Assembly: GCF_017351175.1 (NCBI RefSeq)
Contig: NZ_JAFMPN010000008.1
Location: 62,001-126,000, forward strand
Reading direction: 5' to 3'
Source of the DNA: Desulfovibrio sp. Huiquan2017
Lineage (GTDB): Bacteria > Desulfobacterota > Desulfovibrionia > Desulfovibrionales > Desulfovibrionaceae
Length of the DNA: 64,000 nucleotides
Both the position numbers and the translations under genes were made by a program. The notes beneath the pieces were generated by a model. It saw only the letters and a list, made by a program, of their open reading frames with translations. It made no database searches and was not told where the DNA came from. Position 1 is the stretch's first letter. Each line of letters opens with the position of its first letter. Below, piece after piece: positions 6,616 to 62,587 of the stretch.

Positions 6616-6692
6616 ATTTCTTGTTCGGCACGGTCTTTCGTGAGACACTGCCGGTACACAATCACCCACTCCTACAAGCGAGTATTATAATC

Positions 6693-7823: not shown

Positions 7824-7831
7824 GGGAGCGC

Positions 7832-8182
7832 ATGGCCTGGCTGACCTGGACGGGGATGGTGCGGGTGCTCAAACCCGTTGCCGCCGGCATGGCCCTGGCC
7901 TATTTGGTCACGGGCTTCGTGGACGGACCTCCGCCTGTGAGCTTCAGCCGGGAGAGCCTGCATTCCGCCAAGCAAACGGAGATTCTGGAACCCCAGGGCG
8001 ACCTGGTCATCGAGCGGAACATCCTCAAGCTCGGCTCGCTGCTGACCTTCCGGGTCGAAGACCCGGCCCTGGTGCGGCAGCAACGGGAAATGGCGGGTGA
8101 GCCCGGCATGTTCTTCGATCCCGGGTTTCAAGGACCCGAGGTCAAGGGCATGGTGTCCGGCTCGCCCGAGTTCCTGCCGTAG
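7832..8182 (+). CDS. Small hypothetical protein (116 aa)
   Basis: Starts nine bases after the aminotransferase with GGGGAGCGC before the ATG, so translation coupling is likely. One hydrophobic N-terminal stretch (about residues 8-30, VLKPVAAGMALAYLVTGFV) could be a membrane anchor or uncleaved signal; the rest is polar with Pro/Gly at the C-terminus. No family recognised. Codon use fits the neighbours. Confidence 0.65.
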   Translation: MAWLTWTGMVRVLKPVAAGMALAYLVTGFVDGPPPVSFSRESLHSAKQTEILEPQGDLVIERNILKLGSLLTFRVEDPALVRQQREMAGEPGMFFDPGFQGPEVKGMVSGSPEFLP

Positions 8183-8298
8183 ACCCGGGACGAAGCGGGG
8201 CCTGCGGCGGCCGATTTGCCAGCCGGACCGCGCTCTGGTAATGGGAACCCCCCAAACGACATCACGCCGGGTGCGGCCCGGCACAAAGGAGTACAGTC

Positions 8299-8793
8299 AT
8301 GATCAAGATGGAAACCAGCATGGGCGATATCGTCATCGAACTCGATTTCGATAAGGCCCCTAAGACCGCAGCCAACTTCCAGCAGTACGTGGAGGAAGGT
8401 TTCTACGACGGCCTGATTTTCCACCGCGTCATCTCCAACTTCATGGTTCAGGGCGGCGGCATGGACAAGGACATGAAGGAAAAGGCGACCCGCGCGCCCA
8501 TTAAGAACGAGGCCAACAACGGCCTGACCAACGACAAATACACTCTGGCCATGGCCCGGACCATGGATCCTCATTCCGCCTCGTCCCAGTTCTTCATCAA
8601 CGTCAAGGACAACGGCTTCCTGAACTTCTCCTCCGAAACCCCCCAGGGTTGGGGCTATGCCGTGTTCGGCAAGGTTGTGGAAGGCCAGGACACCGTGGAC
8701 AAGATCAAGGATGTGGACACCGGCCGTCATGGCTTCCATGACGACGTGCCGCTGGAGCCCGTGGTCATCACCAAGGCGACCGTGGTCGAATAA
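8299..8793 (+). CDS. ppiB: Peptidyl-prolyl cis-trans isomerase, cyclophilin type
   Basis: 164 residues, the length of cytoplasmic bacterial PpiB. Cyclophilin landmarks are all visible: KAPKTAANF, the catalytic FHRVI segment with Arg, [24 protein letters not shown] and [10 protein letters not shown]. It has no signal peptide, so it acts in the cytoplasm. AAAGGAG precedes the ATG, and a perfect terminator follows at 8885. Confidence 0.96.
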
Positions 8794-8884
8794 CGGCCCG
8801 TGTCGGCAAAGCCCGCCGCGGCGGGCCATCAACGCCGCTCGTGGGGCCGTTCCCTTTGAGGCCACACGACACTCCGCAAGTCAG

Positions 8885-8923
8885 AAGAGGCGCACCATGG
8901 TAGATGGTGCGCCTCTTTTTTTA
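8885..8923 (+). terminator. ppiB terminator, probably bidirectional
   Basis: Perfect 14-base arms AAGAGGCGCACCAT (8885-8898) and complement (8904-8917), loop of five, then seven T. The gene at 8964-9581 converges on it. Confidence 0.9.
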
Positions 8924-8963
8924 TACTGCGGATCGGGCTGTCCGGTTTTCCCCGGACCGGTCG

Positions 8964-9581
8964 CTACACGAACAGGTTGAGGCCGGTGTAGGACTTGGAG
9001 GCGTTCTGACTGAAGGCCAGGAGTCCGCCGCCGTCGAACCAGCTTGAGGGATTGGTGTTGTCCGCGTACCACCAGGCAAGGGTCTGCTGCTTCAGATCGA
9101 CCATCTTCTGGCTCTGGGAGAGCTGGGTGGAGGCCGTGGCAGTCAGCTTGCCCAACTGGATGATGTCATAAAATTCCTGGACCTTGTTCGGGTTGTCCTC
9201 AAAATATTTGTTGATCACGTCGGCGTCCTTGGTGTCTGCCGGGACCGTGACTTTGCCTGTCTTCGGGTCGTAGGTCATGGCGAACTCGGAGGACACGTCC
9301 ACGCCGAGCTTCTTCAGGTCGGCCATGACCGAGGCGTCCCATTTGTCGCCCAGGCTCTTGCGGTAGTCCTCCACCTCCTGGAACGAAAGTTTGTTGTCGT
9401 CCCCCTTGGGTATCTGGTCCAGAAGGGCGGATATTTCCGAGGCAAGCCCGGTGTTTTTATTGCTTTCTTTGGACTTCGCGTCCAGCGCCTCGGCTTGTTG
9501 GTGGAGCTGTGTTTCCTCCATTGAGGCGCGGAGCAGAGTATAGGTGTTGGCGATAAGATCCGATCCTATGGTCATTGACAT
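8964..9581 (-). CDS. Hypothetical protein (about 205 aa)
   Basis: Unrecognised. Opens MSMTIGSDLIANTYTLL; three in-frame ATGs lie close together, and 9581 is chosen because GGGAG on the minus strand then has seven-base spacing (9587 would leave only one base). The N-terminal third is helical and Gln/Lys-rich; residues about 55-75 (KGDDNKLSFQEVEDYRKSL) resemble an EF-hand-like loop followed by a helix, and two long helices end in SQSQKMVDLKQQ. No signal peptide or membrane segment. The ending SKSYTGLNLFV has some flavour of self-assembling or flagellar-type surface proteins, but that is only an impression. Confidence 0.7.
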   Translation of the reverse strand: MSMTIGSDLIANTYTLLRASMEETQLHQQAEALDAKSKESNKNTGLASEISALLDQIPKGDDNKLSFQEVEDYRKSLGDKWDASVMADLKKLGVDVSSEFAMTYDPKTGKVTVPADTKDADVINKYFEDNPNKVQEFYDIIQLGKLTATASTQLSQSQKMVDLKQQTLAWWYADNTNPSSWFDGGGLLAFSQNASKSYTGLNLFV

Positions 9582-9663
9582 GGACATACTCCCGCTGTTG
9601 CCGTTTCCTGGGGGAATGATTTTCCCCTCTACGGTTCTCAGCACAAGGCGTGCCAGACGGGAA

Positions 9664-9694
9664 CGGCGCGGTCCCGAGCATCGGAACCGCGCCG
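9664..9694 (-). terminator. Hairpin after livF
   Basis: Arms CGGCGCGGT (9664-9672) and ACCGCGCCG (9686-9694). It lies just past the livF stop but lacks a clear U-run, so it may be a stability hairpin. Confidence 0.4.
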
Positions 9695-9721
9695 GAACGC
9701 GTGCGTGGCGGGGAGCGTGGC

Positions 9722-10459
9722 TTAGCCGCCGAGATAGGCCCGCTTGACCTCCGGGTCGTCCATGAGGTCGGCGGACGAACCTTGGGCCACGATTTCGCCG
9801 GTGTCGATGACATAGCCTCGGTGGGCGAATTTGAGCGCCAGGTTGGCGTTCTGCTCGATGAGCAGGATGGTCATGCCTTCCTCGTTGAGTTCCTTGAGGG
9901 TCCGGAACATGTCGTACATGAGCAGGGGCGCCAGGCCCATGGACGGCTCGTCGAGCATGATCACCCGGCAGCCGGACATGAGCGCGCGGCCCACGGCGAG
10001 CATCTGTTGTTCGCCGCCGGACAAGGATTCGGAGCGTTGTTTTTTGCGCTCGTCCAGGCGCGGGAACAGGGTGTAGACGCGCTTGTAGTCGCGGTCTATC
10101 TCCCCTTGCCCGTCCTTGCGCGAGTAGGTGGCCAGCTTGAGGTTCTCCTCGACGGTCAGGTTGCCGAAGATGTGCCTCCCCTCGGGGACCAGCGCCATGT
10201 GCAGGTCCGCGACCACCTTGTCCGCTGGCATCCCCAGGATGGACGTGCCCCTGAAGCGGATGTCGCCCTGGATGACCTTGGGGGCCTCGGGTGGCGGCAG
10301 TTGGGCGATGGACATGAGCGTGGTGGACTTGCCCGCGCCGTTGGCGCCGATGAGGGTGACGATTTCTCCCTCGCCCACGGTGAAGGAGATGCCGTGCAGG
10401 GCTTCGATGTTGCCGTATTTGACGTAGAGGTTTTCGACTTCGAGTAAGGGAGTGGTCAT
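9722..10459 (-). CDS. livF: Branched-chain amino acid ABC transporter ATPase LivF
   Basis: 245 residues. ABC ATPase with Walker A GANGAGKST, signature LSGGEQQML and Walker B VIMLDEPSMGL. It shows the LivF subfamily pattern (EVENLYVKYGNIEALHGI, PEGRHIFGNLTVEENL). It pairs with LivG on the inner face of the membrane. The ATG at 10459 overlaps the livG stop by four bases (ATGA), so translation is coupled. Confidence 0.96.
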   Translation of the reverse strand: MTTPLLEVENLYVKYGNIEALHGISFTVGEGEIVTLIGANGAGKSTTLMSIAQLPPPEAPKVIQGDIRFRGTSILGMPADKVVADLHMALVPEGRHIFGNLTVEENLKLATYSRKDGQGEIDRDYKRVYTLFPRLDERKKQRSESLSGGEQQMLAVGRALMSGCRVIMLDEPSMGLAPLLMYDMFRTLKELNEEGMTILLIEQNANLALKFAHRGYVIDTGEIVAQGSSADLMDDPEVKRAYLGG

Positions 10460-11223
10460 ATGTTGTCGTCTCCAAGATAGGCCTTGATGACGGCCGGGTT
10501 GCTCTGGATGTCTTCGGGGGTGCCCTCGGCGATGGTTGAGCCGAAGTCGATGACCTTGATCCACTGGCACAGGGACGTGACGACCTTCATCTGATGCTCG
10601 ATCATGAAGATGGTGATGTCGAAGTGCTCGTGGATCCAGCGGACCAGGGTGATCAGATCCTCCACGTCCTTGGAGTTCAGCCCTGCCGCGGGCTCATCGA
10701 GGAGCAGGAGCTTGGGCCGGATGGACATGGCTCGGGCTATCTCCACGCGGCGTTGCAGCCCGTAGGGCAGGTTCTTGGGGAACTCCATGGCCACGTCGGT
10801 CAGGGACATGGCCTCCAGGAGGTCTTCGGCGATCTCCAGGATGCGCGCTTCGCGCTTGTGGTATTTTTTGCCGCGTATCACGGAATCCCAGACCGAATAC
10901 CCGAGGCGGTAGTGCTGGGCGATGCGAATGTTGTCCAACACGGTCATGTCGTGCCACAGGCGGATGTTCTGGAAGGTCCGGGCGATGCCCATGGAGGTGA
11001 CCTGGTGCGGCTTGAGCCCCTTGGTGGGCTTGCCGCCGAAGGTGATGGCCCCTTCGGTGGGCTGGTAGAAACCGGAGATGAGGTTGAAGATGGTGGTCTT
11101 GCCTGCGCCGTTGGGGCCGATGAGGCCCATCAGTTCGCCGCCCTGCATGTCCACGGAGAACTCGGAGACCGCCTGAAGGCCGCCGAACCGCTGGGTGAGG
11201 CTGTCTATTTTAAGCAGTGACAT
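10456..11223 (-). CDS. livG: Branched-chain amino acid ABC transporter ATPase LivG
   Basis: 255 residues. Walker A GPNGAGKTT, the Q-loop segment ARTFQNIRL, the degenerate signature LPYGLQRRVEIARA, and Walker B LLLLDEPAAGLN followed by a helical IHEHFDITIFMIEH typical of LivG. Fourth of five genes in the liv operon, 10 bases after livM. Confidence 0.96.
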   Translation of the reverse strand: MSLLKIDSLTQRFGGLQAVSEFSVDMQGGELMGLIGPNGAGKTTIFNLISGFYQPTEGAITFGGKPTKGLKPHQVTSMGIARTFQNIRLWHDMTVLDNIRIAQHYRLGYSVWDSVIRGKKYHKREARILEIAEDLLEAMSLTDVAMEFPKNLPYGLQRRVEIARAMSIRPKLLLLDEPAAGLNSKDVEDLITLVRWIHEHFDITIFMIEHQMKVVTSLCQWIKVIDFGSTIAEGTPEDIQSNPAVIKAYLGDDNI

Positions 11224-11233
11224 GAACAGCCCC

Positions 11234-12328
11234 CTATTTGAACGTGTAGTATTTCTTGAGTTTCGGGAACACGTCCGACAACTCCTTGTTGCCCATGATG
11301 CCCTCGGGCCTGAACTGCATGATCAGGACCAGGAGCAGGGGAATCATGACCCACTTGATGACGCCCGCCGATGGTTCCCAATCCGGGAAGACAAAGGTGG
11401 CCGGGGCCATCAGGAAATCGATGAGCGCCTGGGAGCGCAGGATTTCGAGCAGGAAGGTGAAGACCACCGCCGAAATGATCGCGCCCGACAGGGAGCCCAT
11501 GCCGCCCAGGTAGACCATGACCATGGCCTCGGTGGACTTGAGGATGTTGAAGGACTGCGGGTTGACGTAGCCGATGACGTGGGCGAACAGACCGCCCGCG
11601 CATCCGGCCAGACCCGCCGAGATCATGAAGTTTACGGTTTTGATCTTGTTGGTGTTCACCGACATGATCTCGGCCGCGGTCTCGTCCTGGCACACGGCGT
11701 TGACGCCCTTGCCATAGGTCGAGGTGATGAACCGGCGGATGACCCAGACGTCGAAGGCCGTGAACAGGATCACGTAGAGCAGGACCCAGGGGAAATCGTT
11801 GTCCCCGGCCAGCCAGGACGGGGTGCTGTCCACCATGGCCCAGACCGTGTCTTTCATGCCCTGGAAGCCGCGCGAGCCGCCGACGAAGTCCATGTTCTCG
11901 ATGGCCGAGATGACCATGTAGTTCACGGCGATGGTGATGATGGCCAGATAATCGTCGCGGGTTTTGAACGAGGGCAGGGCCACCAGGATGGAGGATACGG
12001 CCGCGACGGCACCGCCCAGCAGGATGATGACCGGGAAGACGAAGTAGGAGGCCGCCGCGGGCAGCAGGGGGTCGCCGAATTTGTCGCCGAAGCAGAGCAC
12101 GGACAGGATCGAGGCCACGTAGGCGCCCACGCACATGAAGGCTGCGTGGCCGCAGGTGAACTCGCCCATGTTGCCGTTCACCAGGTTCAGCGAGGTGGAC
12201 ATCATGATGTTGATGCCCCCGAACATGATGACCGCCTGGATGTAGTTGTCGAGAATGCGGTATTGGGCCAGGACCAGCAGGGCCACGGCCAGGAATGCCA
12301 TGAGGATGTTGAAGGTGTATTTCTGCAT
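11234..12328 (-). CDS. livM: Branched-chain amino acid ABC transporter permease LivM
   Basis: 364 residues with about nine hydrophobic segments; the LivM-type NLVNGNMGEFTCGHAAF and the coupling region ISAGLAGCAGGLFAHVIGYVNP are visible, and the C-terminus (FRPEGIMGNKELSD) is the usual family ending. Forms the inner-membrane channel with LivH. Confidence 0.95.
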   Translation of the reverse strand: MQKYTFNILMAFLAVALLVLAQYRILDNYIQAVIMFGGINIMMSTSLNLVNGNMGEFTCGHAAFMCVGAYVASILSVLCFGDKFGDPLLPAAASYFVFPVIILLGGAVAAVSSILVALPSFKTRDDYLAIITIAVNYMVISAIENMDFVGGSRGFQGMKDTVWAMVDSTPSWLAGDNDFPWVLLYVILFTAFDVWVIRRFITSTYGKGVNAVCQDETAAEIMSVNTNKIKTVNFMISAGLAGCAGGLFAHVIGYVNPQSFNILKSTEAMVMVYLGGMGSLSGAIISAVVFTFLLEILRSQALIDFLMAPATFVFPDWEPSAGVIKWVMIPLLLVLIMQFRPEGIMGNKELSDVFPKLKKYYTFK

Positions 12329-50259: not shown

Positions 50260-50336
<77 letters not shown>

Positions 50337-50447: not shown

Positions 50448-53051
50448 TTAGCTGTTTTGGCTTCTGTAGTAGTCGATATCCTTCAGCCTTTTGCTAAAGG
50501 CATTTTGTGATGCATGGGGGAGATTGGTCATGGCGTAGATGCATAATTCTTCACCCTTGTCAAAGTCTTGCACACGAATAGCGACTTCAACCAGCTGACG
50601 CAAAGCAGATATTACATTCATACGTACTTCAGCTTCTATGCGATTGACGTCGACATCTTGAATGAATTGATAATATGCGTCGCCTTCGTAAAGGATATCA
50701 AAGAATCTCGTTTTTTGGACAGCACAAGCAGATTTAAATTGATCGTGAGTAATTTCATCTAAGCGTTTCTTAGTTTTCAATTGCTTCCTTTCATCTATCC
50801 AAAAAATTGCCTTGTAGAGTATTAGCAAGGAAAATATATCAACACAAATTAAGTCATCTGTTTTGAGTTGAGCTGATGATTCTGAGAAGTGATCTTCGAT
50901 TAACCGTATCGCTTTTGACTTATGTTCTTTCCCTCCAGCAGACCAGCAAAGACTTGCGAAAAGTTTAATAAACCTGTTGTCGAGCCTAAAAGTGTTGTAG
51001 TAGGTGTTGCATAACTCAATCGCTTCGAGTCTTTTACCTCTGTCATTCGCGTAGTAATTAACTGCATTGAGAATCGCTTTAAAACGTATACTGGATGGTG
51101 CCGATGATCGATCTAAAACAAAGCGGTACTGCTCTATCACGTTTTCTTCAGTTTCTGTGTATCTAGAAGAGTCAGCGCTTCTTAAAAGAGCTTCGTCGAT
51201 TTCAAAAGAATTGTCCGATCCTACTCTCCCAATGTTTCGTATGACTTTCTTTTTGAAACTTGCCGCAAGGTCTTCAAAAGACGATTTCATTATCTGGAAA
51301 ATTTCTTTTGAATACACCTTGAAGAATTTGCCATCTAATTCGATTATTCTTAATTTTTGCAAATCTATTAGTGATGAAGTGAACCGATCTCCATCTTTGT
51401 CCATTTCAACAACATAAGCGAGCTTTGCTACCAAGTTTGAAAGTTCGTCTTCGTCGACCAACTGACTGATTGTCCCAAATAATTTTTTTGAGTTAAGTGT
51501 GAGATAGTCGAAGATTCTTCCGTATAGGAAGTCGATCGCTGCTTCAGAATTCTTGAGATCTTTGTCTATGATCTTGTCAATGTTACCATTTTGCATCCAC
51601 AGGTATGCAAACTGGTATATAAAAATTGGCCTTCCGCTTGTTATATCATGAATTGTCTTGCCAAGGTTTTTGTCAGTGATGTTTTCTTGGTATGGTTTTA
51701 TTTGTTCTATTTTGAACTCATTAATTAATACTTCGTAAAGGAACTCTAGGGTCCTCTTCGTGTCGAGTTCATTGGTTCGAATCTCTTCACCAATGACTGA
51801 GTTTGATCTAGTTGTAATTAGGACTTTATGGCGATCAATATCAAGTTTTCTGGTGAACGCTTCGATTAAAGCTCTTTCGTCAGGGGGGAAAGTCTCAAAG
51901 TCGTCAATAATAATGAGGACTTTCCCCTCGTAGTTTAGAATCTTATTCTTATCGGCTGAGAGCTCACCATGAATTACAGAATTTGTTTCTTCGATGATGT
52001 CGTTAAAGCTTCTTGCAGAAGGCTCGTTATCTACTACTTCTCCGCTAAAGTAATTGTAGTATCTATCTTTAGCACTATAAAAGACAATGTAGTCGAAATA
52101 TTTTTTGTTGACAGATAGGTCTTCGCATATACTTTGAACTGATGCGGTTTTACCTACTCCTCCGTGCCCCCATACTGTGGCGCTTGCTGAAGCTCTATTT
52201 TTCGTCAAAAAATCTTTGATCTGTCTTTTTACGCCAACATCTATATACTTTTTGTAGTTGTTTCTGAATTCGTTTATGATTGTTGAGTTTTCTGTTCTTT
52301 TTCTTTTTCCGTCATGTTCTATTGTGATATTTATCAATTCTGGCCATACCACATAGAGCTCACCAGTTTTTCCAAGCTGATTGTATTGAACTTTTCCAAT
52401 CAGTTTTTCCTTGATACTGCGATACATGTAGACACTGTCTTCATCTCTGATGTGTATGAATGGAGATACCCTTTTAAATTTTCCACTATTAATTCTTATG
52501 TATAAGTTGTTTTTCTGTGCTGTCGTTGCATGTGATGGACAACTGTAGTAATCATATTCATTTCCATCTGCATTATAAACTGTACCATGTAGGATTTTAT
52601 CCTCTTCTTTGTCGATGAAGATCATGTCGTATTTGTTTTCAAATAATGCGCTGCTGTTTTCTATATCGTTTATAATGTTGTTGTATCTATCTATTACAGT
52701 TTCAGTTGCGTCCTCGTAAGCGAAACCATGGCCTATTATATTGTTTCGGAAGCTAGGATACTCATTTATTCTTTTCGATATTTTCTTATTTGAAAAGAAG
52801 GCCTTGTCCAAGTCGAGCATCCTAGAAATTTCTACTATTACCCCTATTGATGGCGCCGGTAACTCTCTCAGGACGAATTCCTTGTCATCTGCCTCTAGTT
52901 GTTCGAAGTTATCATCCCAAAGGTAAGCAAGAATTAGAATAAGCATATACTCGATTTTTGAGCGCAAATATGTGCAAAGGATATCTTGCTTCGCAGGTTG
53001 CTTCCTGAAATAGTTTATTTTTTTATTTAGTTTTGATAATATAAAATCCAT
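50448..53051 (-). CDS. HEPN-like/STAND NTPase, candidate defence protein
   Basis: 867 residues from ATG 53051 (AAGGAAG six bases before; a 21-codon extension lacks a site). Order: helical N-terminus (1-115) with RNNIIGH (R102 to H108), the R-x4-6-H pattern of HEPN ribonuclease-type domains; a middle part rich in strands (150-250); a STAND/NB-ARC NTPase with Walker A GHGGVGKT (295-302), Walker B VLIIIDDFE (378-386) and TTRSN sensor (413-417); then helical repeats to the end (about 600-867). No signal peptide. The gene is visibly AT-rich and uses different codons from all neighbours, so it is recently acquired. STAND proteins with effector domains (Avs-like) defend against phages; RNA cleavage here is inference. 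Confidence 0.85.
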   Translation of the reverse strand: MDFILSKLNKKINYFRKQPAKQDILCTYLRSKIEYMLILILAYLWDDNFEQLEADDKEFVLRELPAPSIGVIVEISRMLDLDKAFFSNKKISKRINEYPSFRNNIIGHGFAYEDATETVIDRYNNIINDIENSSALFENKYDMIFIDKEEDKILHGTVYNADGNEYDYYSCPSHATTAQKNNLYIRINSGKFKRVSPFIHIRDEDSVYMYRSIKEKLIGKVQYNQLGKTGELYVVWPELINITIEHDGKRKRTENSTIINEFRNNYKKYIDVGVKRQIKDFLTKNRASASATVWGHGGVGKTASVQSICEDLSVNKKYFDYIVFYSAKDRYYNYFSGEVVDNEPSARSFNDIIEETNSVIHGELSADKNKILNYEGKVLIIIDDFETFPPDERALIEAFTRKLDIDRHKVLITTRSNSVIGEEIRTNELDTKRTLEFLYEVLINEFKIEQIKPYQENITDKNLGKTIHDITSGRPIFIYQFAYLWMQNGNIDKIIDKDLKNSEAAIDFLYGRIFDYLTLNSKKLFGTISQLVDEDELSNLVAKLAYVVEMDKDGDRFTSSLIDLQKLRIIELDGKFFKVYSKEIFQIMKSSFEDLAASFKKKVIRNIGRVGSDNSFEIDEALLRSADSSRYTETEENVIEQYRFVLDRSSAPSSIRFKAILNAVNYYANDRGKRLEAIELCNTYYNTFRLDNRFIKLFASLCWSAGGKEHKSKAIRLIEDHFSESSAQLKTDDLICVDIFSLLILYKAIFWIDERKQLKTKKRLDEITHDQFKSACAVQKTRFFDILYEGDAYYQFIQDVDVNRIEAEVRMNVISALRQLVEVAIRVQDFDKGEELCIYAMTNLPHASQNAFSKRLKDIDYYRSQNS

Positions 53052-53131
53052 GATACTTCCTTGCACTGAATGTTTTCTGCAAATATTAATCGCGATCATT
53101 CTCCCTATACACAACTCGATTTATTTGCCAA

Positions 53132-53432: not shown

Positions 53433-54815
53433 CTATCCGCTTTTCCCGCTATCCTGGAAAAAGGATTTGTCCACGGCGAACCCGCGCAGCCGGGCCAGCG
53501 TTTCCGCATCGCTGAATATCTCCCGCAATCCGACGACCGCCGTGAAGACAAAGGCCTTTCCCCGTTGGTTGAGCTCAAGATAGCCCTTGTCCACGAGTTC
53601 GAGAAAATCCCGCCGCGCCGTGGGATAGGCGATCCCGTGATTGTTCTTGTGGTAGCGGATCGTGAATTCGGCCTCGGCATTGCGCAGGGCCCGCCCCACG
53701 ATGGAACGCTGCCGGTCGTTCAACTGGGGGTCGTTCTTGAGCATCTGGCGCAACTCCCGGTCCCATTTCTCCCATGCCTCGACATAGTGCTCGACGACCC
53801 TGAGCGAGACCAGCATCAACTGGGCGGCCAGGGTCTGGAGCGACGTCAGGTCCCCGGGGCTCCGCCTGCGCAGGTTCTCGAAGGTGGGCCGGTCGAAGGA
53901 GACCAGGGGCGGAAGAATGCGTCCCGCGTCCCAGTCCAGCTTGGCCCGGGAGGCGGGCAACAGGCCGAGCACGGGCAGGTCGTGTTTCAGGGCGTAGAGA
54001 TGCGCGACGAGACGGCCCACTTGGTAGCTGACCTGTTTGAATGGGCGGTAGAACCGGAACGAGTCCGTCAGGATCAGGGCCCGCAGGAGGTCATAGTCGT
54101 ACTGGCTGCCGGTCTCGCCGTTCGCATAGGCGGCGATGTGGTCCAGTTGCCTGTCCGCGAACCGCTCGACCATGGCGTCCGGCCATTCGAACAGGCCGGT
54201 GCCCAGGGGGGCCTGGCTCGTGGCGAGGGCGTCCATATCCACTCCCTTGAGCAGTCGGTCGCGGAAATGCACGAACAGGTCCCTGGAGAAGGGTTCGTGG
54301 AGAAACTCCGAAAGATGGTCGATGGCGTAGAAGGTGTTGTACACAAGCTGCTCGGTCGCGTTTTTGGGCGCTTTGTCGAGCCTGAGCAGTATGTCCGCGT
54401 CCTTCATGGAGATGGAGAGGCCGTCCAGCTGCGTGGCGGCGATGGTTTCCGGGATCCGGACGTTCATGAGAAAGTGCTGGCCCCCTGCGGACGTCATGGT
54501 CCGGTGCAGATGGGAGTCCGGGGCGCAGGCCCTGGTCACTATGGTGACCACGTCCGAGAGCTCGTGCGTCCGGCGATACCAGTGCTCGCCGTCGTTCAAG
54601 TCCGGGATCGGGAGCTCAATCCCCATATAGCGGCTCATCCGGTGCATAAGCTCCCACATGCCGAGGGGACTCATGCCCGGAGGCAGGCTCTGGGACAGAA
54701 ACTCCTCCCAGGTAATACATCGCTGCGCGAATCGTTTGATCATCGCCTGGAATTCGGGAGTATTGAAAACCTTCCAAATATCCCGCCCGGATGCGGGCGA
54801 TCCGGTGTCGGTCAT
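53433..54815 (-). CDS. Degenerate Fic-like protein with C-terminal winged helix
   Basis: 460 residues from MTDTGSPASGRDIWKVF (54815, GGAG upstream). Residues about 245-320 have the helical pattern of a Fic domain (FRFYRPFKQVSYQVGRLVAHLYAL) but the AMP-transfer motif HPFxxGNGR is lost: His is Arg and GNGR is VSYQ, only PF and the later GRL remain. The C-terminus (NNHGIAYPTARRDFLELVDKGYLELN) is the winged helix that follows many Fic domains. Enzyme activity is therefore unlikely; a DNA-binding regulator is a better guess. It is divergent from the SDR-fix operon over a 724-base AT-rich gap. Confidence 0.6.
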   Translation of the reverse strand: MTDTGSPASGRDIWKVFNTPEFQAMIKRFAQRCITWEEFLSQSLPPGMSPLGMWELMHRMSRYMGIELPIPDLNDGEHWYRRTHELSDVVTIVTRACAPDSHLHRTMTSAGGQHFLMNVRIPETIAATQLDGLSISMKDADILLRLDKAPKNATEQLVYNTFYAIDHLSEFLHEPFSRDLFVHFRDRLLKGVDMDALATSQAPLGTGLFEWPDAMVERFADRQLDHIAAYANGETGSQYDYDLLRALILTDSFRFYRPFKQVSYQVGRLVAHLYALKHDLPVLGLLPASRAKLDWDAGRILPPLVSFDRPTFENLRRRSPGDLTSLQTLAAQLMLVSLRVVEHYVEAWEKWDRELRQMLKNDPQLNDRQRSIVGRALRNAEAEFTIRYHKNNHGIAYPTARRDFLELVDKGYLELNQRGKAFVFTAVVGLREIFSDAETLARLRGFAVDKSFFQDSGKSG

Positions 54816-55539
54816 GTGCCGCTCCATACCATCCAAGATTGTTTTTGAATCATCGGGCGGCAACATCCGTCGGCAACCCGATGGGAAAGCATCCATTTCG
54901 TCCGAGGCGGTCAGTCGGCCCGGTCCCCGTGGCGGGTGTCGCTGCCTCAAACGTTCTCTACGCTACGGCAGTATATATATCATCCGAGTCATTTTTTGGC
55001 AAAAACTTATACATGCTCTGAAAATATATAAATAGTGCGCGCGTTGGGTGCAAAAAATAGTTTGCGGGAAATAGTTGGTTCAAAATGCCGGTAGCCGTCT
55101 CGGAGCCTGCGCCTCCCCTTGCCCTGCTCGGAGCGGGAGTCCAAGGAGAAGGCAGAGGGATAACGATACGATCATTTTTTAACATATATCAAAGTGGTTA
55201 GGGCTATTCACGCCGTTTGTCTCCCCGCGCCTTCGCAGAGTCCTTGCCGAACGGTTCGCTTCGTGCCTGCTGCTGGGATGACGCCCAATCTATCCTTTTT
55301 GCATCACCACCGTATTGGTCAGAATAATGGTCCGTGTTTATCATGCAAAATCTCTATTGTGTATACTTCTATCACTTCAAATCTTGTGCAACATATACAA
55401 AATCTACATATTGACACACTAAAGGCAGGGAGATACGGCAAAAATTAAGAGGTTGTGAATACGGATAGAGTCGTACATCGGCGGAACCGGAGACAAGGCG
55501 GATTCTCTTAACGAAGTGAAACCGAAAGGAGGCAATCAC
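54816..55539. other. 724-bp AT-rich divergent control region
   Basis: No gene. It holds a good minus-strand promoter for the Fic-like gene (54974-55002), AT-rich tracts at 54971-55075 and 55170-55445, a possible plus-strand -35 TTGACA at 55411-55416, and short dyads around GTGTATAC and TTGTGCAAC. Unusually long for this genome. Confidence 0.5.
54974..55002 (-). promoter_or_regulatory. Promoter of the Fic-like gene
   Basis: On the minus strand TTGCCA (plus 54997-55002), 17 bases, TATATA (54974-54979), leaving a leader of about 150 bases. Confidence 0.5.
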
Positions 55540-56301
55540 ATGCCTGAACAATTGTTGGATTTTACGGGAAAGGTTCTCGCCCTGACGGGCGGCGGCTCTG
55601 GCATAGGGCAGGCGACCGCCATCGCCTTTGCACGGCAGGGCGCCAAGGTCGTCATCGCCGGGCGAAGCAACGCGGATGAAACTCTGCGCCGTATCAAGGA
55701 AGCCGGCGGCGAGGCCATATTTGTACGCACCGACGTCAGCGTCTCCTCCGATGTGCGGAACTTCATCAAGACGACCATCGACACCTATGGACGGCTCGAC
55801 ATCGCCTTCAATAATGCCGGATTGCTCCCCCCGACCGTCGACCTGGCCGATCAGACCGAAGAGGACTTCGACAAGATCATGGCCGTGGACGTCAGAGGGG
55901 TCTTTTTGTGCATGAAGTACCAGATCCCCGAGATGCTCAAGGTCGGAGGCGGCGCGATCATCAACTGCGGTTCCATCGTCAGTCTCGTGGCCGACCCCGG
56001 AATGAGCCCCTACGCGACGGCTAAGCACGCGGTCGCAGGCATGACCAAGGCCGCCGCCTTGGAATATGCGGCGCGCAATATCCGCGTTAATACGATCTGC
56101 CCCGGTCTGACCGAAACCGGCATGACAAAGGGCTGGCTGGCCGACCCGGAAATGCGTGAACTGGTCAAGTCCTACAATGCGGCCCACCGGATCGCCTCGC
56201 CGGACGAGATAGCCGGTATCGTCCTGTTCCTGGCTTCGCCGATGGCGTCCTTCGTCACCGGCGGCGTCTATCCCGTGGACGGTGGCCAGAGCGCCCACTA
56301 A
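55540..56301 (+). CDS. Short-chain dehydrogenase/reductase
   Basis: 253 residues from ATG 55540 with AAAGGAGG upstream. Classical SDR: NAD(P)-binding TGGGSGIG (about 18-25), NNAG, catalytic Ser in INCGSIVSL, Tyr and Lys in SPYATAKHA, ending YPVDGGQSAH. First gene of the fix-type operon (24 bases to fixA). Probable role: dehydrogenation of a hydroxy group or the reverse on the operon's substrate, giving the NAD(P)-linked step; substrate unknown. Confidence 0.93.
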   Translation: MPEQLLDFTGKVLALTGGGSGIGQATAIAFARQGAKVVIAGRSNADETLRRIKEAGGEAIFVRTDVSVSSDVRNFIKTTIDTYGRLDIAFNNAGLLPPTVDLADQTEEDFDKIMAVDVRGVFLCMKYQIPEMLKVGGGAIINCGSIVSLVADPGMSPYATAKHAVAGMTKAAALEYAARNIRVNTICPGLTETGMTKGWLADPEMRELVKSYNAAHRIASPDEIAGIVLFLASPMASFVTGGVYPVDGGQSAH

Positions 56302-56325
56302 CCGCGCATCGAACGAGGGAAACCC

Positions 56326-57060
56326 ATGAAGATACTTGTCGTATTCAAATGGTCGCAGGACCCGCAGGACGCCAGGGTGAGCGCCGACGGCGCCGTCGAC
56401 TGGCAAGGCGTCAGGATGTCGGCGAACGACGACGATCCCGCCGCCATGGCGGTTGCCAGGGATATCGCTTCCCCGGACGGCGAGATTGTCGGGCTGACCA
56501 TAGGCGATGGGGAAACGGCCTGGGCGGCGGCGCGCGGAGCGTCGAGCACCGTGGTCGTGTCCGACGCCCGGACCAATGCGGACAGCGCCGTCACCGGTGC
56601 CGTCCTGGCCGCCGGGGTCAGGCGGGCAGGCGATGTGGATGTCGTCGTTATCGGCGATTCCGCGTGGGATTACGGCGTGGTCGCCTCGCTGGCGGGGCAG
56701 CTGGGCTGGCCCGCACTGGCGAACGTCCTGTCCGTCGAGAAACGGGATGGGGCGCTGCGGGCGACCCGCAAGATCGGCAGCGGCACCCAGATCGTCGATG
56801 TGACCGGGCCCGCCGTTCTGGCCGTGGTCGCCAACCGGGCCGAACAGGAGATTCCCGGAATGAAGGCTGTTCTCGCCGCGCGCAAGAAGCCCGTGGACAC
56901 GATTGGCCTGGCGGATTTGGCGATTGACCCACCGGCCGTGGTTTCCTCGCGGGGGACGAAGCTCCCCGATGTCCCGCCGGCACAGATTATCGACGGCTCG
57001 GACCCCAAGGCCGCTGCCGGACGGCTGATGGCGGCCCTGCATGCGGAAAACGTGTTGTAG
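56326..57060 (+). CDS. fixA: Electron transfer flavoprotein beta subunit (FixA-type)
   Basis: 244 residues. ETF beta fold: starts MKILVVFKWSQDPQD, contains ANDDDPAAMAVARDIA, VVIGDSAWDYGVVASLAGQLGWPAL, and GPAVLAVVANRAEQEIPGMK. The N-terminus has the charged KW motif of the family. With FixB it carries electrons between a dehydrogenase or reductase and the quinone-linked FixC/FixX. Confidence 0.92.
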   Translation: MKILVVFKWSQDPQDARVSADGAVDWQGVRMSANDDDPAAMAVARDIASPDGEIVGLTIGDGETAWAAARGASSTVVVSDARTNADSAVTGAVLAAGVRRAGDVDVVVIGDSAWDYGVVASLAGQLGWPALANVLSVEKRDGALRATRKIGSGTQIVDVTGPAVLAVVANRAEQEIPGMKAVLAARKKPVDTIGLADLAIDPPAVVSSRGTKLPDVPPAQIIDGSDPKAAAGRLMAALHAENVL

Positions 57061-57097
57061 GCATGGCCGGAGCCGCGTGAGCAACAGGAGGTGGCAA

Positions 57098-58024
57098 GTG
57101 AGTGGAGATAGTTGGCTTATCATTACCGATGAAGGACGCATAGGCGGGATGCTTTCCGCCGTCCGACAGCTTGGCGGCAAGGTCACGGCGGTGGTGGTCG
57201 GGCCTCGTGGCCTGGCGGACACCGTCGCGGCGAAAGGGCCTGACCGGGTTCTCTGGTTTGCCGTGGAGGAGGGCTTTCCGCCCGAAGCGTACGGAACGCA
57301 AGTCGCCGAGGCGGCAAAGACCGCCGGGGTACGGGTTGTCCTTTCGTCGGATGTGCCGTCGGGGCGTGTGCTGCTCGGCATGGTTGCCGCGCAGACGAAC
57401 AGCGCCGTGGTCGGTTCGATTCGGAGCCTGGCCGAGGATGGAGATAGTCTTCTGGTCGGCCGGTCCGTGGCCGACGGCAGGGCTGTCGAGACCCTGGAAG
57501 TGACCGGTTCACTGGCCGGTATTTTCGACGGAAAGGATGTGGACCTGCCGCCCGGCCAGCCCGCGACCGTCGAGGAAGTTCCGGTCCGCCAGCCGGACGG
57601 CGCCTTGCGTGTCGTGGAGACCCTGCCTGCGAGCGCGGAGAGCGCCGGGCTGCTGTCCGCGGAGCGTGTGGTGGGCGCGGGCTCGGGAATCCGGGCCAAG
57701 GAAGACCTCGAACTGATCCGGCAACTGGCGACAGCCGTTGGCGCGGAGATCGCCTGCAGCCTGCCCGTCTGCGACGACATGCGGTGGTTCGAATCGGCGC
57801 GTGTCGTCGGGTCCTCACATCATCAGATCGCTCCGGCTCTTTATATCGCCGTGGGCATCTCCGGGCAGCCGCAACACATGTCCGGGCTGCGGGACGCCAA
57901 GGTCATCGTGGCCGTCAATAACGATCCCGAGGCCCGGATCTTCAAGCATTGCAATTATGGAATCGTCGGGGACCTCTACAAGGTCGTCCCCGCATTGGCA
58001 GAGGAATTCAGGAACGCCTGTTGA
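57098..58024 (+). CDS. fixB: Electron transfer flavoprotein alpha subunit (FixB-type)
   Basis: 308 residues from GTG 57098 with AGGAGG seven bases upstream; the frame to 57041 overlaps fixA and is rejected. C-terminal FAD domain: GAGSGIRAKEDLELIRQLATAVGAE, VVGSSHHQIAPALYIAVGISGQPQHMSG, VAVNNDPEARIFKHCNYGIVGDLYKVVPAL. The usual ETF motif VGQTGK is VGSSHH, and GISGQ-QHM follows, which is closer to the carnitine-operon FixB type than to beta-oxidation ETFs. Confidence 0.93.
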   Translation: MSGDSWLIITDEGRIGGMLSAVRQLGGKVTAVVVGPRGLADTVAAKGPDRVLWFAVEEGFPPEAYGTQVAEAAKTAGVRVVLSSDVPSGRVLLGMVAAQTNSAVVGSIRSLAEDGDSLLVGRSVADGRAVETLEVTGSLAGIFDGKDVDLPPGQPATVEEVPVRQPDGALRVVETLPASAESAGLLSAERVVGAGSGIRAKEDLELIRQLATAVGAEIACSLPVCDDMRWFESARVVGSSHHQIAPALYIAVGISGQPQHMSGLRDAKVIVAVNNDPEARIFKHCNYGIVGDLYKVVPALAEEFRNAC

Positions 58025-58064
58025 TCGTGAATGAGTAACACACTCTTTTATCAGGAGAAATAGA

Positions 58065-59546
58065 ATGTCTGACCAAAACATCGCTTTCGATACTGAATAC
58101 GACGTTGTCATCATCGGTGGCGGCGGCTCTGGAAAGTCTGCGGCTCTCACGGCGGCTCAGGGTGGGCTGCGCACCGCGATCCTGGAGAAGATGGAACAAA
58201 CGGGCGGAAGTTCGATCTACGCCGAGGGAACCGCCGCGTTCGAGTCCAGCGAACAAAAGAAGCGCGGTGTTCCGGATCAGGAAGGAAAGCACTTCCCCTC
58301 GCGGGAGGAGGGATTCCGCCGATATATCGAATATAGCCACCATCGGGCCAACCCCGACGTCGTGCGAATGCAGGTCGAGAACACCGCCGAAACCATCGAC
58401 ATCCTGAAGTCCCTGGGGATCGAGTACACCGACGTCTCCATCTATGCGTACGACCAGCCCCATGAGCTGTACACGTTCCACCGGCCGGACGGTTTGGGCG
58501 AACGCGTCCAGGAGGTCCTGTTGCGCGCCTGCGTCAATGCCGGAGTGGACATCTTCACGTCGACGCCGGCCAGAAAGATTTTGATGAAGGACGGCGCCGT
58601 GACCGGGGTCGTGGCCGAGGATTCCGATGGGAACGTCATGAACATCGGCTGCCGGGCGGTGATTTTGGCGACTGGCGGTTACGGCAACAACCCGGAACTG
58701 GTGAAGAAGTACTCGTGGCTCTACCGCAGTGCGGACTTCACCTATCAATGCGTTCCCACGGAGAACACCGGCGACGGACTGACCATGGCCCTCGAGGTCG
58801 GCGCCGACACGGAGAACATCGGTGCGATAATGATCGTCCCGTGCGCGCGAAGCAAGACCCTGACCTCGCATGCGAGCGGCGCCGGTTCCCAGCCGGTCCT
58901 GTGGGTGAACAAGACGGGCCGTCGCTTCGCCAGCGAGGAAGTGGCCATGAGTTTTGCCGACGCCGGGAACACCGTGGCCAAGCAGCCGCAAGCCACGGTG
59001 TATGCGCTCATCGACAGCGACACCGTGCAGCACCTCATGACCGAGGGATCGGACATCGGCCTCGGCGATTTCATTGAATACCACATGAAGCTGGTCCGGC
59101 TCCAGGCGGAACTGGATCAGGATGTCGCCGACGGCATCGCCTGGAAGGCGGACACCATCGAGGGCCTGGCCAAGGCCGTAAAGCTCGATCCCGCCGTGCT
59201 CGCCAATACGGTGGATGAATACAACGATGCCTGCGACAAGGGGTATGATCCCTTGTTCTTCAAGCCCGCCAAGTTCCTTCGCCCCGTGCGGAAGGCCCCG
59301 TTCTACGCCATCAATATGGCGGCGAGCGTGCTTGCTTCGGACGGCGGCATTCGGGTCAACGGCGATCTTCAGGTCACCGACCAAGACTACAACCCCATTC
59401 CGGGATTGTACGCCGTGGGCAACGACGCCAGCGGCTTGTTCGGCGACACCTACAACCTGGATGTACCCGGAACGGCCAACGGCTTTGCGCATGCGTCGGG
59501 GCGGGTCGCCGCACGGCATGTAATCGCCATGTGCAAGGAATCGTAG
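58065..59546 (+). CDS. Fumarate reductase-like flavoprotein (FAD-binding 2 family)
   Basis: 493 residues. Dinucleotide site DVVIIGGGGSGKSAALTAAQ (about 13-32), TGGSSIYAEG, RAVILATGGYGNN, ASEEVAMSFADAGN, YAINMAASVLASDGGIRVNG and YAVGNDASGLFGDTYNLDVPGTANGFAHASG, the standard FrdA/3-ketosteroid dehydrogenase/urocanate-reductase pattern. No signal peptide, no haem or FMN domain, so it works in the cytoplasm and must get or give electrons through another protein; FixAB is the obvious partner. Substrate unknown: likely reduction (or formation) of a C=C bond next to a carbonyl. Confidence 0.9.
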   Translation: MSDQNIAFDTEYDVVIIGGGGSGKSAALTAAQGGLRTAILEKMEQTGGSSIYAEGTAAFESSEQKKRGVPDQEGKHFPSREEGFRRYIEYSHHRANPDVVRMQVENTAETIDILKSLGIEYTDVSIYAYDQPHELYTFHRPDGLGERVQEVLLRACVNAGVDIFTSTPARKILMKDGAVTGVVAEDSDGNVMNIGCRAVILATGGYGNNPELVKKYSWLYRSADFTYQCVPTENTGDGLTMALEVGADTENIGAIMIVPCARSKTLTSHASGAGSQPVLWVNKTGRRFASEEVAMSFADAGNTVAKQPQATVYALIDSDTVQHLMTEGSDIGLGDFIEYHMKLVRLQAELDQDVADGIAWKADTIEGLAKAVKLDPAVLANTVDEYNDACDKGYDPLFFKPAKFLRPVRKAPFYAINMAASVLASDGGIRVNGDLQVTDQDYNPIPGLYAVGNDASGLFGDTYNLDVPGTANGFAHASGRVAARHVIAMCKES

Positions 59547-59662
59547 GGTCACATTCTCGGACACGCTCCTACCGATCGAGGGAGGTGGGCCTGGCGGCCA
59601 TTCGCGGCCGCTGGTCCGCCGCCCTCCCGGTGGGTTCCCGGTTGAGACAGGAGGTAGCAGGA

Positions 59663-60973
59663 ATGAATGCAGAGAACCAATCCCCGGATGTCGATTTCGA
59701 CGTCATCGTCGTCGGAGCCGGTGTGGCCGGTTGCGTCACGGCATACCAGCTGGCCGTCAAGGGACATTCCGTGCTTCTGGCGGAGCGGGGGCCGAAGCCG
59801 GGTAGCAAGAATCTGTCGGGCGGCGTTTTTTATTGCAGCGTGATGAAAGAGGTTATGCCCGAGTTCGAGGCCGAGGCGCCGATCGAACGCCGGGTGACCC
59901 GCAACTGCCTGAGTTTTCTCTCGCCCACATCCTTCGTCAACCTGGACTATCGTGATGAACGGCTGGCCCAGAACGGGACTGCCGTGACCGTGCTCCGGGC
60001 CAAACTCGACGATTGGCTGGCCACCAAGTGCGAAGATGTCGGCGTGACGTTGATGCCCGGCATCAAGGTCGACGGGCTGCTCAAGGATGCGGACCGGATT
60101 GTCGGCATCAAGGCGGGGGACGATACCTTGCGCTCGCATGTGGTGGTCGCGGCCGACGGCGTGAATTCGTTCCTTTGCCGGGATGCCGGCATCCGGGCGA
60201 CGGAGCCGACGAACCATCTGGCCGTCGGGGTCAAATCGGTCATCAGGTTGCCGCGCGAGGTGATCGAGGAGCGGTTCAATCTCAATGGCGACGAAGGGGC
60301 CGCGTATGCCGTGGTCGGCGATTGCACCAATGGCGTGGGCGGCGGGGGGTTCTTGTATACCAACATCGACTCCATCTCCATTGGTGTCGTGCTCCGGCTC
60401 GACGATCTTGTCGAACGCGGCGAGTCGTCCTCGGACCTGCATGACCGTTTCTTGAGCAATCCGGCGATTGCGCCGTTTCTCAAGGGAGGGGAATTGCTCG
60501 AATACGGCAGCCACCTGGTCGCCGAAGGAGGTCGGGCCATGGTGCACGACCTCACCCGGCCGGGCCTGGTCGTTGTCGGCGACGCCGCCGGATTGACCCT
60601 CAACACCGGGTTGACCCTCCGGGGCATGGATCTGGCCGCGGGGTCGGGTATCGTGGCGGCAAAGACCATCGACACCGCCTTGCAACAGGGGGATTTCTCC
60701 CAGGCCTCGCTGGACGCCTATACCGCCGAGCTCGATGCGACCTTTGTGGGCCAGGATATGCGGACCTATGCCAAGGCACCGGACTTTTTCCTGAATCCGC
60801 GCATGTATGGAGACTATGGCCGGTTGTTGAGCGACGTCTTGTACGGTGTCTATAATCTCGACATGAAGCCGCGTCGGCATTTGCTGCCCATGGTGATGGC
60901 CGCGCTGAAGGAATCGCCGGTAAAGGCCATGCAACTCGCCAGAGACGCCTACGCGGCAGTGAGGGCGCTATGA
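59663..60973 (+). CDS. fixC: ETF-quinone oxidoreductase-like flavoprotein (FixC)
   Basis: 436 residues from ATG 59663 with AGGAGG upstream. FAD site DFDVIVVGAGVAGCVTAYQLA; family motif RGPKPGSKNLSGG; VVVAADGVNSFLCRDAG; VVGDAAGLTLNTGLTLRGMDLAAGSG. It lacks the cysteine-rich FeS domain of mitochondrial ETF-QO, which here is the separate FixX gene overlapping its end by four bases. A membrane-associated link to menaquinone. Confidence 0.95.
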   Translation: MNAENQSPDVDFDVIVVGAGVAGCVTAYQLAVKGHSVLLAERGPKPGSKNLSGGVFYCSVMKEVMPEFEAEAPIERRVTRNCLSFLSPTSFVNLDYRDERLAQNGTAVTVLRAKLDDWLATKCEDVGVTLMPGIKVDGLLKDADRIVGIKAGDDTLRSHVVVAADGVNSFLCRDAGIRATEPTNHLAVGVKSVIRLPREVIEERFNLNGDEGAAYAVVGDCTNGVGGGGFLYTNIDSISIGVVLRLDDLVERGESSSDLHDRFLSNPAIAPFLKGGELLEYGSHLVAEGGRAMVHDLTRPGLVVVGDAAGLTLNTGLTLRGMDLAAGSGIVAAKTIDTALQQGDFSQASLDAYTAELDATFVGQDMRTYAKAPDFFLNPRMYGDYGRLLSDVLYGVYNLDMKPRRHLLPMVMAALKESPVKAMQLARDAYAAVRAL

Positions 60974-61309: not shown

Positions 61310-61355
61310 GGTTATACGTCCCGCCACGCCGGAGCCCGCGCGTTCGAGCCTCGTC
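61310..61355 (+). pseudogene. Decayed tRNA-Asp 3' portion
   Basis: Aligns to tRNA-Asp from the D-arm end to the acceptor: GGTTATA, CACGCCGGAG, CCGCG, GTTCGAG, CTCGTCGGCTC are shared, with several substitutions, a short deletion over the anticodon stem and CCA replaced by CCG. The next bases AGAAAGATCAAG parallel the tRNA-Asp 3' flank CTAAAGATCAAG. Cannot fold to a working tRNA. Confidence 0.75.
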
Positions 61356-61374
61356 GGCTCAGCCGAGAAAGATC

Positions 61375-61477: not shown

Positions 61478-62587
61478 TCATCGCTGCTTGCGCCGGTTCA
61501 TGCGCTTGATTTCCATGGTTACGTCTTTCCAGCGCTCTTTTTCGACGCAGTCCGCGCTTTTTTCGGTGCGGGCCCGGACGTAGCTCATTTCCCGTTGCAT
61601 TTTGCGGTAGTTCTCCAGGCGGGCCGGGGAGAGTTCGCCGGTGTCCACGGCGAGGATCACCGCACAGCCGGGTTCGTGCCGGTGCGAGCAGTCAGCGAAG
61701 CGGCAGTGATCGGCCAGTTCACGGATGTCGGCAAAGGTCGCGTCCAGGCCATCGCCGTCTTTGGACAAGGCTATTTCGCGGATGCCCGGGTTGTCCAGGA
61801 GCAGGCCGCCCCGGGGCATGGCGATGAACTCGCGGGACGTCGTGGTGTGGCAACCCTTGCCCACGCTTTGGCTCACGGCCGCCGTGGCCTGGATATCGCT
61901 GCCGTGCAACATGTTCGCCAGCGAGGATTTTCCCGCTCCGGACGAGCCGATCATGGAGACGGTTTGCCCGGCCCCGAGGAAGGCGTGGAGCGCTTCGACG
62001 CCGAGCCCGCCCTGTGTGGAGGTGAGGATCACCGGGACGCCGAGCGCGGTGTTCTCCACCTCGTCCCGGCATGTCGCCGGAGATTCGTGGAGGTCCGCCT
62101 TGGTCAGGACAATCACCGGGGCCATGGCGCAATTATAGACCAGGGCCAGGTAGCGCTCGATCCGGCGCAGGTTGTAGTCACGGTCCAGGCCGCAAACGAT
62201 GAACACCGTGTCGATGTTCGCGGCCAATGGCTGTTCGCGCCGGGACGCGCCCTCCTGCCTTCCGCGTGAGCCCGCCTCGCCCCGGCACAGTGTGTTCCGG
62301 CGCGGGAGGACGCGTTGGATCACGGTTTCGTCCACGAGCACCCAGTCTCCGGTGACCGGATAGTCCTGCCCCAGGGGGCGGCGCATCCTGCCGGACGGGG
62401 TGCAGAGCCATTGCGCGCGCCCGTCGGAGACCGGAAAACGGTCCCGCTGCGCGCTGAGGACCCGGGCCATGCGGCTCATGTCGAGGTTTTCGTCGGCCGC
62501 CAGGCGGTCGAAGCGTTCGCTCCAGCCGAGTCGGCGGAGGTTGTCTGTCAGTTCGTCCTGATTCGTGGAAAAGGTCTGTCTCTTCAT
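61478..62587 (-). CDS. rsgA: Small ribosomal subunit biogenesis GTPase RsgA
   Basis: 369 residues. N-terminal OB-type domain, circularly permuted G-domain in the order VLTKADL (G4), LTSTQGGLG (G5), GSSGAGKSSLAN (G1), SREFIAMPRGGLLLDNPGIRE (G2-G3), and a C-terminal zinc part (ADHCRFADCSHRHEPGCAV). The basic tail (MEIKRMNRRKQR) binds rRNA. Family role: 30S maturation. Convergent with the fix operon, outside the proposed island. Confidence 0.94.
   Translation of the reverse strand: MKRQTFSTNQDELTDNLRRLGWSERFDRLAADENLDMSRMARVLSAQRDRFPVSDGRAQWLCTPSGRMRRPLGQDYPVTGDWVLVDETVIQRVLPRRNTLCRGEAGSRGRQEGASRREQPLAANIDTVFIVCGLDRDYNLRRIERYLALVYNCAMAPVIVLTKADLHESPATCRDEVENTALGVPVILTSTQGGLGVEALHAFLGAGQTVSMIGSSGAGKSSLANMLHGSDIQATAAVSQSVGKGCHTTTSREFIAMPRGGLLLDNPGIREIALSKDGDGLDATFADIRELADHCRFADCSHRHEPGCAVILAVDTGELSPARLENYRKMQREMSYVRARTEKSADCVEKERWKDVTMEIKRMNRRKQR

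Follow-up and report, generated by a model that had tools for sequence, protein, structure and literature searches.

A predicted HEPN-STAND protein at a tRNA-Asp integration site in Desulfovibrio sp. Huiquan2017: a candidate one-gene defence protein

We analysed a stretch of 64,000 nucleotides from Desulfovibrio sp. Huiquan2017 (contig NZ_JAFMPN010000008.1, positions 62,001 to 126,000; hereafter the window), in which one gene encodes a protein of 867 amino acids (aa) that joins an N-terminal HEPN-like domain and an all-beta insert to a STAND NTPase and a helical-repeat C-terminus (Table 1). This HEPN-STAND protein is probably a one-gene, NLR-like defence protein that would sense phage and act through an RNase effector. 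The fold, motifs and conservation of the protein, the constraint on its gene and the mobility of a copy in Pseudodesulfovibrio OB3 were all established by computation.

Domain architecture and conservation

The initial annotation had proposed a HEPN-like effector on the strength of an R-x5-H pattern in the helical N-terminus, and had named structure prediction as the check. In the AlphaFold model the N-terminus forms a four-helix core with an insert between helices 2 and 3, as in the HEPN superfamily. The motif, R102-NNIIG-H108, extends from helix 89-107 into the loop that follows, so that an Rx4-6H element with a polar residue (N103) after the arginine stands at the end of helix 3, and helix 19-51 supplies the acidic residue of helix 2, E34, which is invariant in 101 aligned homologues and kept in at least 90% of 44 more widely sampled N-terminal pieces. 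In the alignment of 101 of the 120 listed homologues R102, N103, G107, H108 and G109 do not vary, RN-x3-GHG within the first 160 residues accompanies a P-loop in all 120, and R102, H108 and G109 are invariant in 44/44 N-terminal pieces, whose identities are as low as 22% and some of which lack N103. Because of this invariance the pattern is not a chance occurrence. The model thus supports a HEPN-like fold with the motif located where HEPN domains carry theirs, and the outcome that would have told against the proposal, an N-terminus modelled as something other than HEPN, did not occur.

Pfam gave no significant HEPN match for the N-terminus, and the motif region (residues 101-120, predicted local distance difference test (pLDDT) 71-76) is the least confidently modelled part of residues 1-138. 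These two results would suit a STAND signalling protein, for instance a stress-response regulator, whose HEPN fold is non-catalytic and serves oligomerisation or RNA binding; we regard this as quite unlikely, since a pure scaffold would not need both catalytic residues, and R102 and H108 are present in all 44 N-terminal pieces, those that lack N103 among them. Foldseek with the N-terminal model reached a best E of 0.013, with no HEPN domain among the 50 matches listed; 1wwp was raised solely by the VIA second look. A sequence search of the PDB with an N-terminal profile returned a single weak and irrelevant match, which was discarded. When the N-terminal 262 residues were used as query, 20 proteins were retrieved, all of 860-973 aa, and none of these 20 carried the module on another NTPase, a search made weak by its sensitivity and length limits.

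The remaining parts of the protein were also as first described. The strand-rich insert, originally placed at residues 150-250, is a genuine beta domain. The STAND core is complete, with Walker A, Walker B and TTRSN (residues 413-417), and the features that define the NB-ARC class are present: Walker A, an hhhhDD Walker B, a TTR sensor, a GRP motif, and helical and winged-helix modules. NB-ARC models matched 34/34 family members, versus 10/34 for nSTAND3. The long helical C-terminus is TPR-like. A named family for the whole protein was sought in Pfam, NCBIfam and PADLOC and was not adopted, as only generic NB-ARC, NACHT and AAA matches appeared; a PDB sequence search with the protein gave no match.

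Table 1. Coordinates in the window of the HEPN-STAND gene, its parts and the associated integration features
Feature	Position	Strand	Remark
HEPN-beta-NB-ARC-TPR protein, 867 aa	50448..53051	-	ATG start; AlphaFold2 model, mean pLDDT 90
HEPN-like RNase domain (predicted), residues 1-138	52638..53051	-	
R102-x5-H108, predicted catalytic motif	52728..52748	-	end of helix 89-107
All-beta insert, residues 142-260	52272..52628	-	first barrel weakly OB/S1-like
STAND NTPase, residues 263-600 (NB-ARC, helical and winged-helix parts)	51252..52265	-	
Walker A GHGGVGKT, residues 295-302	52146..52169	-	invariant except V299 in 101 homologues
Walker B VLIIIDDFE, residues 378-386	51894..51920	-	D383, D384, E386 invariant in 101 homologues
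TPR-like helical C-terminus, putative sensor, residues 601-867	50451..51251	-	
tRNA-Asp (GTC), integration site	50260..50336	+	3' end duplicated in genus siblings
C-terminal remnant of tyrosine integrase, 72 aa	53193..53411	-	Pfam Phage_integrase 5.6e-9
Degenerate distal attachment (att)-like copy of tRNA-Asp 3' end	61326..61365	+	35/40 matches, 5 mismatches

Mobility, constraint and genomic surroundings

tRNA genes are places where mobile elements insert, and the gene ends 111 nt from tRNA-Asp, directly behind it as had been noted. Its strong AT bias was likewise borne out: G+C is 0.376 and 0.363 in the two 1-kb segments at 51-53 kb that it occupies and 0.53-0.70 in the rest of the window, except for 0.45 at 50-51 kb, a segment that it partly fills. 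In Pseudodesulfovibrio OB3 the gene travels in an integrative element whose site is tRNA-Asp. Two exact 51-nt copies of the tRNA-Asp 3' end bound a 6.7-kb interval there, which holds, besides the gene and by reading, a serine recombinase, an RNase-H-like open reading frame (ORF), a 202-aa ORF and an intact tyrosine integrase. Of such an element the window retains only the integrase remnant and a degenerate second tRNA end, and a fresh att pair around the gene was not found there. The remnant, behind the start of the gene, is 54-56% identical over 50 aa to the 364-aa integrases directly behind tRNA-Asp in four sibling stretches (L086, L091, L093 and L096) and 45% identical over 55 aa to the OB3 integrase. 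The distal copy is followed by a hairpin and a T-run, like those behind the distal copy in the OB3 contig (L002 and G197, counted once), and stands 112 nt ahead of a GTPase gene (61478-62587) that reads as RsgA; in one sibling genome (G289) a tRNA-Asp end copy stops 56 nt ahead of the same gene.

The truncated integrase and the degraded att copy might suggest a horizontally acquired gene that is now decaying and has no present role in the strain, a possibility to which we give very little credence. Against it, the 867-codon frame is intact, from the ATG at 53051, with AAGGAAG 4 nt ahead (53056-53062), to the stop at 50448-50450; the ORF list also offers a longer TTG start at 53114. Moreover, the gene and the OB3 copy are 82% identical, with proportions of nonsynonymous and synonymous change (pN and pS) of 0.108 and a saturated 0.819, and this sequence comparison shows long-term constraint under strong purifying selection.

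The family is widespread and the gene is patchily distributed. At least 580 homologues were found at E ≤1e-3 among 7995 scored candidates (more candidates existed), and the alignments of the 120 listed cover 97-100% of the query. Scanning one genome per species from 84,980 species with two peptide patterns, which gives a lower bound, located 49 loci, spread over Bacteroidota, Bacillota, Pseudomonadota, one cyanobacterium, one Treponema and further groups. A tree of 45 rows, from which short, broken and duplicate loci had been left out, nested Leptolyngbya inside Bacteroidota with starred support, a placement that fits horizontal transfer and does not prove it. Within the order, 3/297 genomes matched, two at full length (Huiquan2017 and OB3) and the third through a short NTPase match; in a sample of the phylum 3/395 matched, Huiquan2017 alone at full length. 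No phage record matched the family, and a DNA search of E. coli genomes with the Klebsiella homologue gave no match. One plasmid record, from Runella, held a relative whose annotated gene spans only ~569 aa; copies were found in an integrative element, a prophage-like contig and a plasmid. A Flavobacterium homologue (L034) looks frameshifted, with 28 stops if read in one frame.

The tRNA-Asp site is a hotspot across the genus. A tRNA-Asp query matched 36/36 genus genomes, at least several of which have further end copies nearby. We sampled 20 stretches from 16 genomes, mostly picked for extra copies and hence a biased choice; 13 of the 16, Huiquan2017 and OB3 included, had at least two end copies (the tRNA's own end counted, ≤8/40 mismatches), and several elements are stacked at the site in siblings. 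With the Huiquan2017 and OB3 stretches set aside, 116 of the 161 hotspot proteins of ≥200 aa were scanned with PADLOC at E 1e-15; the other 45 come mainly from L089, L101, L104, L105 and from genes past the last copy. In the 25 of the 182 matching families that were listed, Cas9 and Cas1 each had 2 members, and the methylase, specificity and restriction subunits of type I systems had 2-3. Single scans of ten hand-picked proteins, nine from hotspot stretches and one from the OB3 contig, matched PD-Lambda-4_A (5e-119, L095), QatA (7e-189, L093), PD-T7-5 (2e-106, L104), MTase_I (2e-71, L088), DpdB (2e-21) and RmrA/capP (3e-11) in L086, and PDC-S10 (3e-14, L096); 3/10 had no match. L095 and the OB3 element have integrases that are 93% identical: one vehicle with two cargoes, which is the strongest contextual argument for defence. 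Weighing on the other side, metabolic genes also reside in the hotspot (by reading in L089, by Pfam in the window), and residence there is therefore no proof of a defence role. The hotspot also supplies a set of further candidate defence cargo.

Three side observations belong to these stretches. By reading, Cas9 and Cas1 lie in L090 and L091, which would be a type II CRISPR locus between tRNA-Asp end copies. In L095 the PD-Lambda-4_A cargo stands next to an AAA_13 protein (6483-10331 with 10595-12082). From a tRNA-Asp end copy to the limit of its stretch, L105 has three genes of ≥200 aa, one of which (438-2363) encodes an AAA_15 protein with a weak OLD-like TOPRIM match.

Elsewhere, the 405 proteins of ≥100 aa encoded no more than 6 kb from the gene at 52 loci (home-made gene calls) were clustered; no conserved operon partner occurred in more than 4 loci, and the largest clusters, serine recombinases, tyrosine recombinases and ABC ATPases, covered 4 loci. 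Across the loci examined this patchy gene thus shows no common housekeeping setting; such a setting would have told against a defence role. PADLOC, applied at E 1e-15 to the three nearest neighbours of ≥100 aa per side at 48 loci (125 and 112 proteins), matched 110 and 233 families, and the 25 listed for each set had 1-3 members apiece; these included type I restriction subunits, mad2/3/5, PDC families, PD-Lambda-5_B, a type II methylase and others. With a few phmmer queries, recombinases were found at 9/43 and type I restriction genes at 5/43 loci of ≥9 kb. All these neighbour counts stand without control regions for comparison. The surroundings of the Klebsiella homologue are prophage-like: Phage_rep_O is encoded upstream of it and DUF1367 downstream. 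L030 and L055 seem to represent one and the same region. On a viral contig (L053) a protein of DUF4145, another HEPN family, is encoded at 5737-6477, two genes upstream of a homologue. N6_Mtase is present in 36/41 host genomes, but its position with respect to the gene could not be established, and it was not used.

It could be argued that the protein stabilises its element rather than acting on phages, either by keeping out competing plasmids and integrative elements or by serving as an addiction device. The gene fills ~39% of the 6.7-kb OB3 element, next to recombinases and small genes, and the site holds several stacked elements in siblings. We think this unlikely, because the neighbours of ≥100 aa include no recurrent antitoxin-like partner (smaller ones lie outside that test), the same-site element of L095 bears an anti-phage gene, and the Klebsiella homologue is itself within a prophage-like region. 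HEPN-MNT toxin-antitoxin pairs are recognised by a neighbouring MNT antitoxin gene; none of the neighbour clusters extends beyond 4 loci, although no search aimed at MNT was made.

Relation to described systems and a possible mechanism

PADLOC contains Avs models. No PADLOC 2.0.0 model matched the 867-aa protein at E 1, and the best match among 34 family members was 0.0071, to JetA; the protein is therefore not an obvious named type, in line with the earlier remark that it was not obviously one of the named Avs types. A family that is full length across phyla thus stands without a model match.

The idea of a bacterial HEPN-STAND fusion is not new, since the architecture class is described in both PMC3710099 and PMC8195603. 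The accessible text of the former (2013) has a list of bacterial proteins in which HEPN is fused to STAND-ATPase, TPR and S1 (Npun_F6454, MED222_16016, Desac_1927) and names Bacillus cereus gi 229028907 among them. As here, these place HEPN, STAND NTPase and TPRs in one chain, with a mostly active motif, and the weakly OB/S1-like insert could be their S1 domain, a comparison by description only. They appear there as a table entry and one sentence, and no test was found in that text. The available part of PMC8195603 (2021) describes two-STAND conflict systems with predicted GT4 or HEPN effectors; they share a predicted HEPN RNase effector on a STAND module, but place it on an inactive STAND beside a second, active partner, whereas here the P-loop and Walker B are intact and no partner recurred among the homologues' neighbours of ≥100 aa.

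Avs proteins such as Avs5 share the tripartite order of effector, STAND and helical-repeat sensor, with Sir2 in Avs5 where HEPN stands here; the prevalence of NB-ARC over nSTAND3 matches in the present family is a further difference. As described in the accessible part of PMC12169576, bNACHT25 and its relatives are likewise NLR-related defence proteins with an N-terminal nuclease and a C-terminal helical part, but combine a PD-(D/E)XK DNase with NACHT, unlike the HEPN, beta insert and NB-ARC found here. Tha, from S. aureus prophages, uses a HEPN RNase as abortive effector (motif R265NSIMH270), but has 301 aa with HEPN at the C-terminus and, in the portion of PMC11087260 available, no mention of an NTPase, whereas here an N-terminal HEPN domain is attached to one. 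Human SAMD9, described in the available text of PMC12331169 as an antiviral protein that depletes tRNA, was the top Foldseek match to the whole model (E 5.6e-8); kinship was not accepted, as the TM-score is only 0.15 and the root mean square deviation 24. Avs5 too resembles SAMD9 by Foldseek, according to the accessible part of PMC12931631.

In the sources as available, the effectors described for STAND defence proteins are TIR, Sir2, DNase and metallophosphatase, with HEPN as a prediction only; the excerpted PMC11811056 (2025) exemplifies both HEPN and STAND systems, none in both lists, and PMC13092281 counts, by domain, HEPN in 4 validated systems and P-loop NTPase in 7. No report of a tested HEPN-STAND protein was found among the papers listed in the literature searched, most subscription papers being outside its reach.

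C-terminal sensing, NTP-dependent assembly and an N-terminal effector form the plan of Avs and bNACHT proteins (PMC12169576 and PMC12931631, as accessible), and by analogy this plan would be the parsimonious reading here. For sensing, assembly, RNA cleavage, cell arrest and the target RNA we infer the following course. At rest, nucleotide-bound NB-ARC would be kept closed by the TPR arm. Recognition of a phage or other invader protein by the TPR-like C-terminus would then permit nucleotide exchange and, as the fold and conserved motifs suggest, a ring-like assembly comparable to resistosomes and Avs. The clustered N-termini could pair HEPN active sites, with R102 and H108 of the modelled motif aided by E34, while the OB-like insert may gate these sites or hold RNA. 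Cutting of tRNA, rRNA or mRNA would halt growth and phage replication. A wider proposal, which we hold to be somewhat less likely than not, is that the family might constitute an unnamed, phylum-spanning class of anti-phage NLRs, in which an NB-ARC resistosome pairs HEPN RNases via an OB-like nucleic-acid-binding collar; the ring would both sense the invader protein and license RNA cleavage, and the collar would be a second check or an RNA guide. If the RNase effector is proven, bacterial NLRs would be joined to the RNA-cutting strategy of HEPN toxins and SAMD9; the candidate is one 2.6-kb gene and therefore directly testable.

Other genes in the window

Two further observations concern the interval between tRNA-Asp and the distal att-like copy. 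On the plus strand, 55516-60973 encodes a short-chain dehydrogenase, two electron transfer flavoprotein (ETF) subunits, a FAD_binding_2 flavoprotein and an ETF-QO-like protein, which may together be a catabolic cluster acquired from elsewhere. Behind the start of the HEPN-STAND gene, a 505-aa ORF without a Pfam match (53433-54950, minus strand) has a weak SoFic match (PADLOC 2.7e-9, residues 383-475) and, by reading, would be a Fic-like protein whose motif has eroded.
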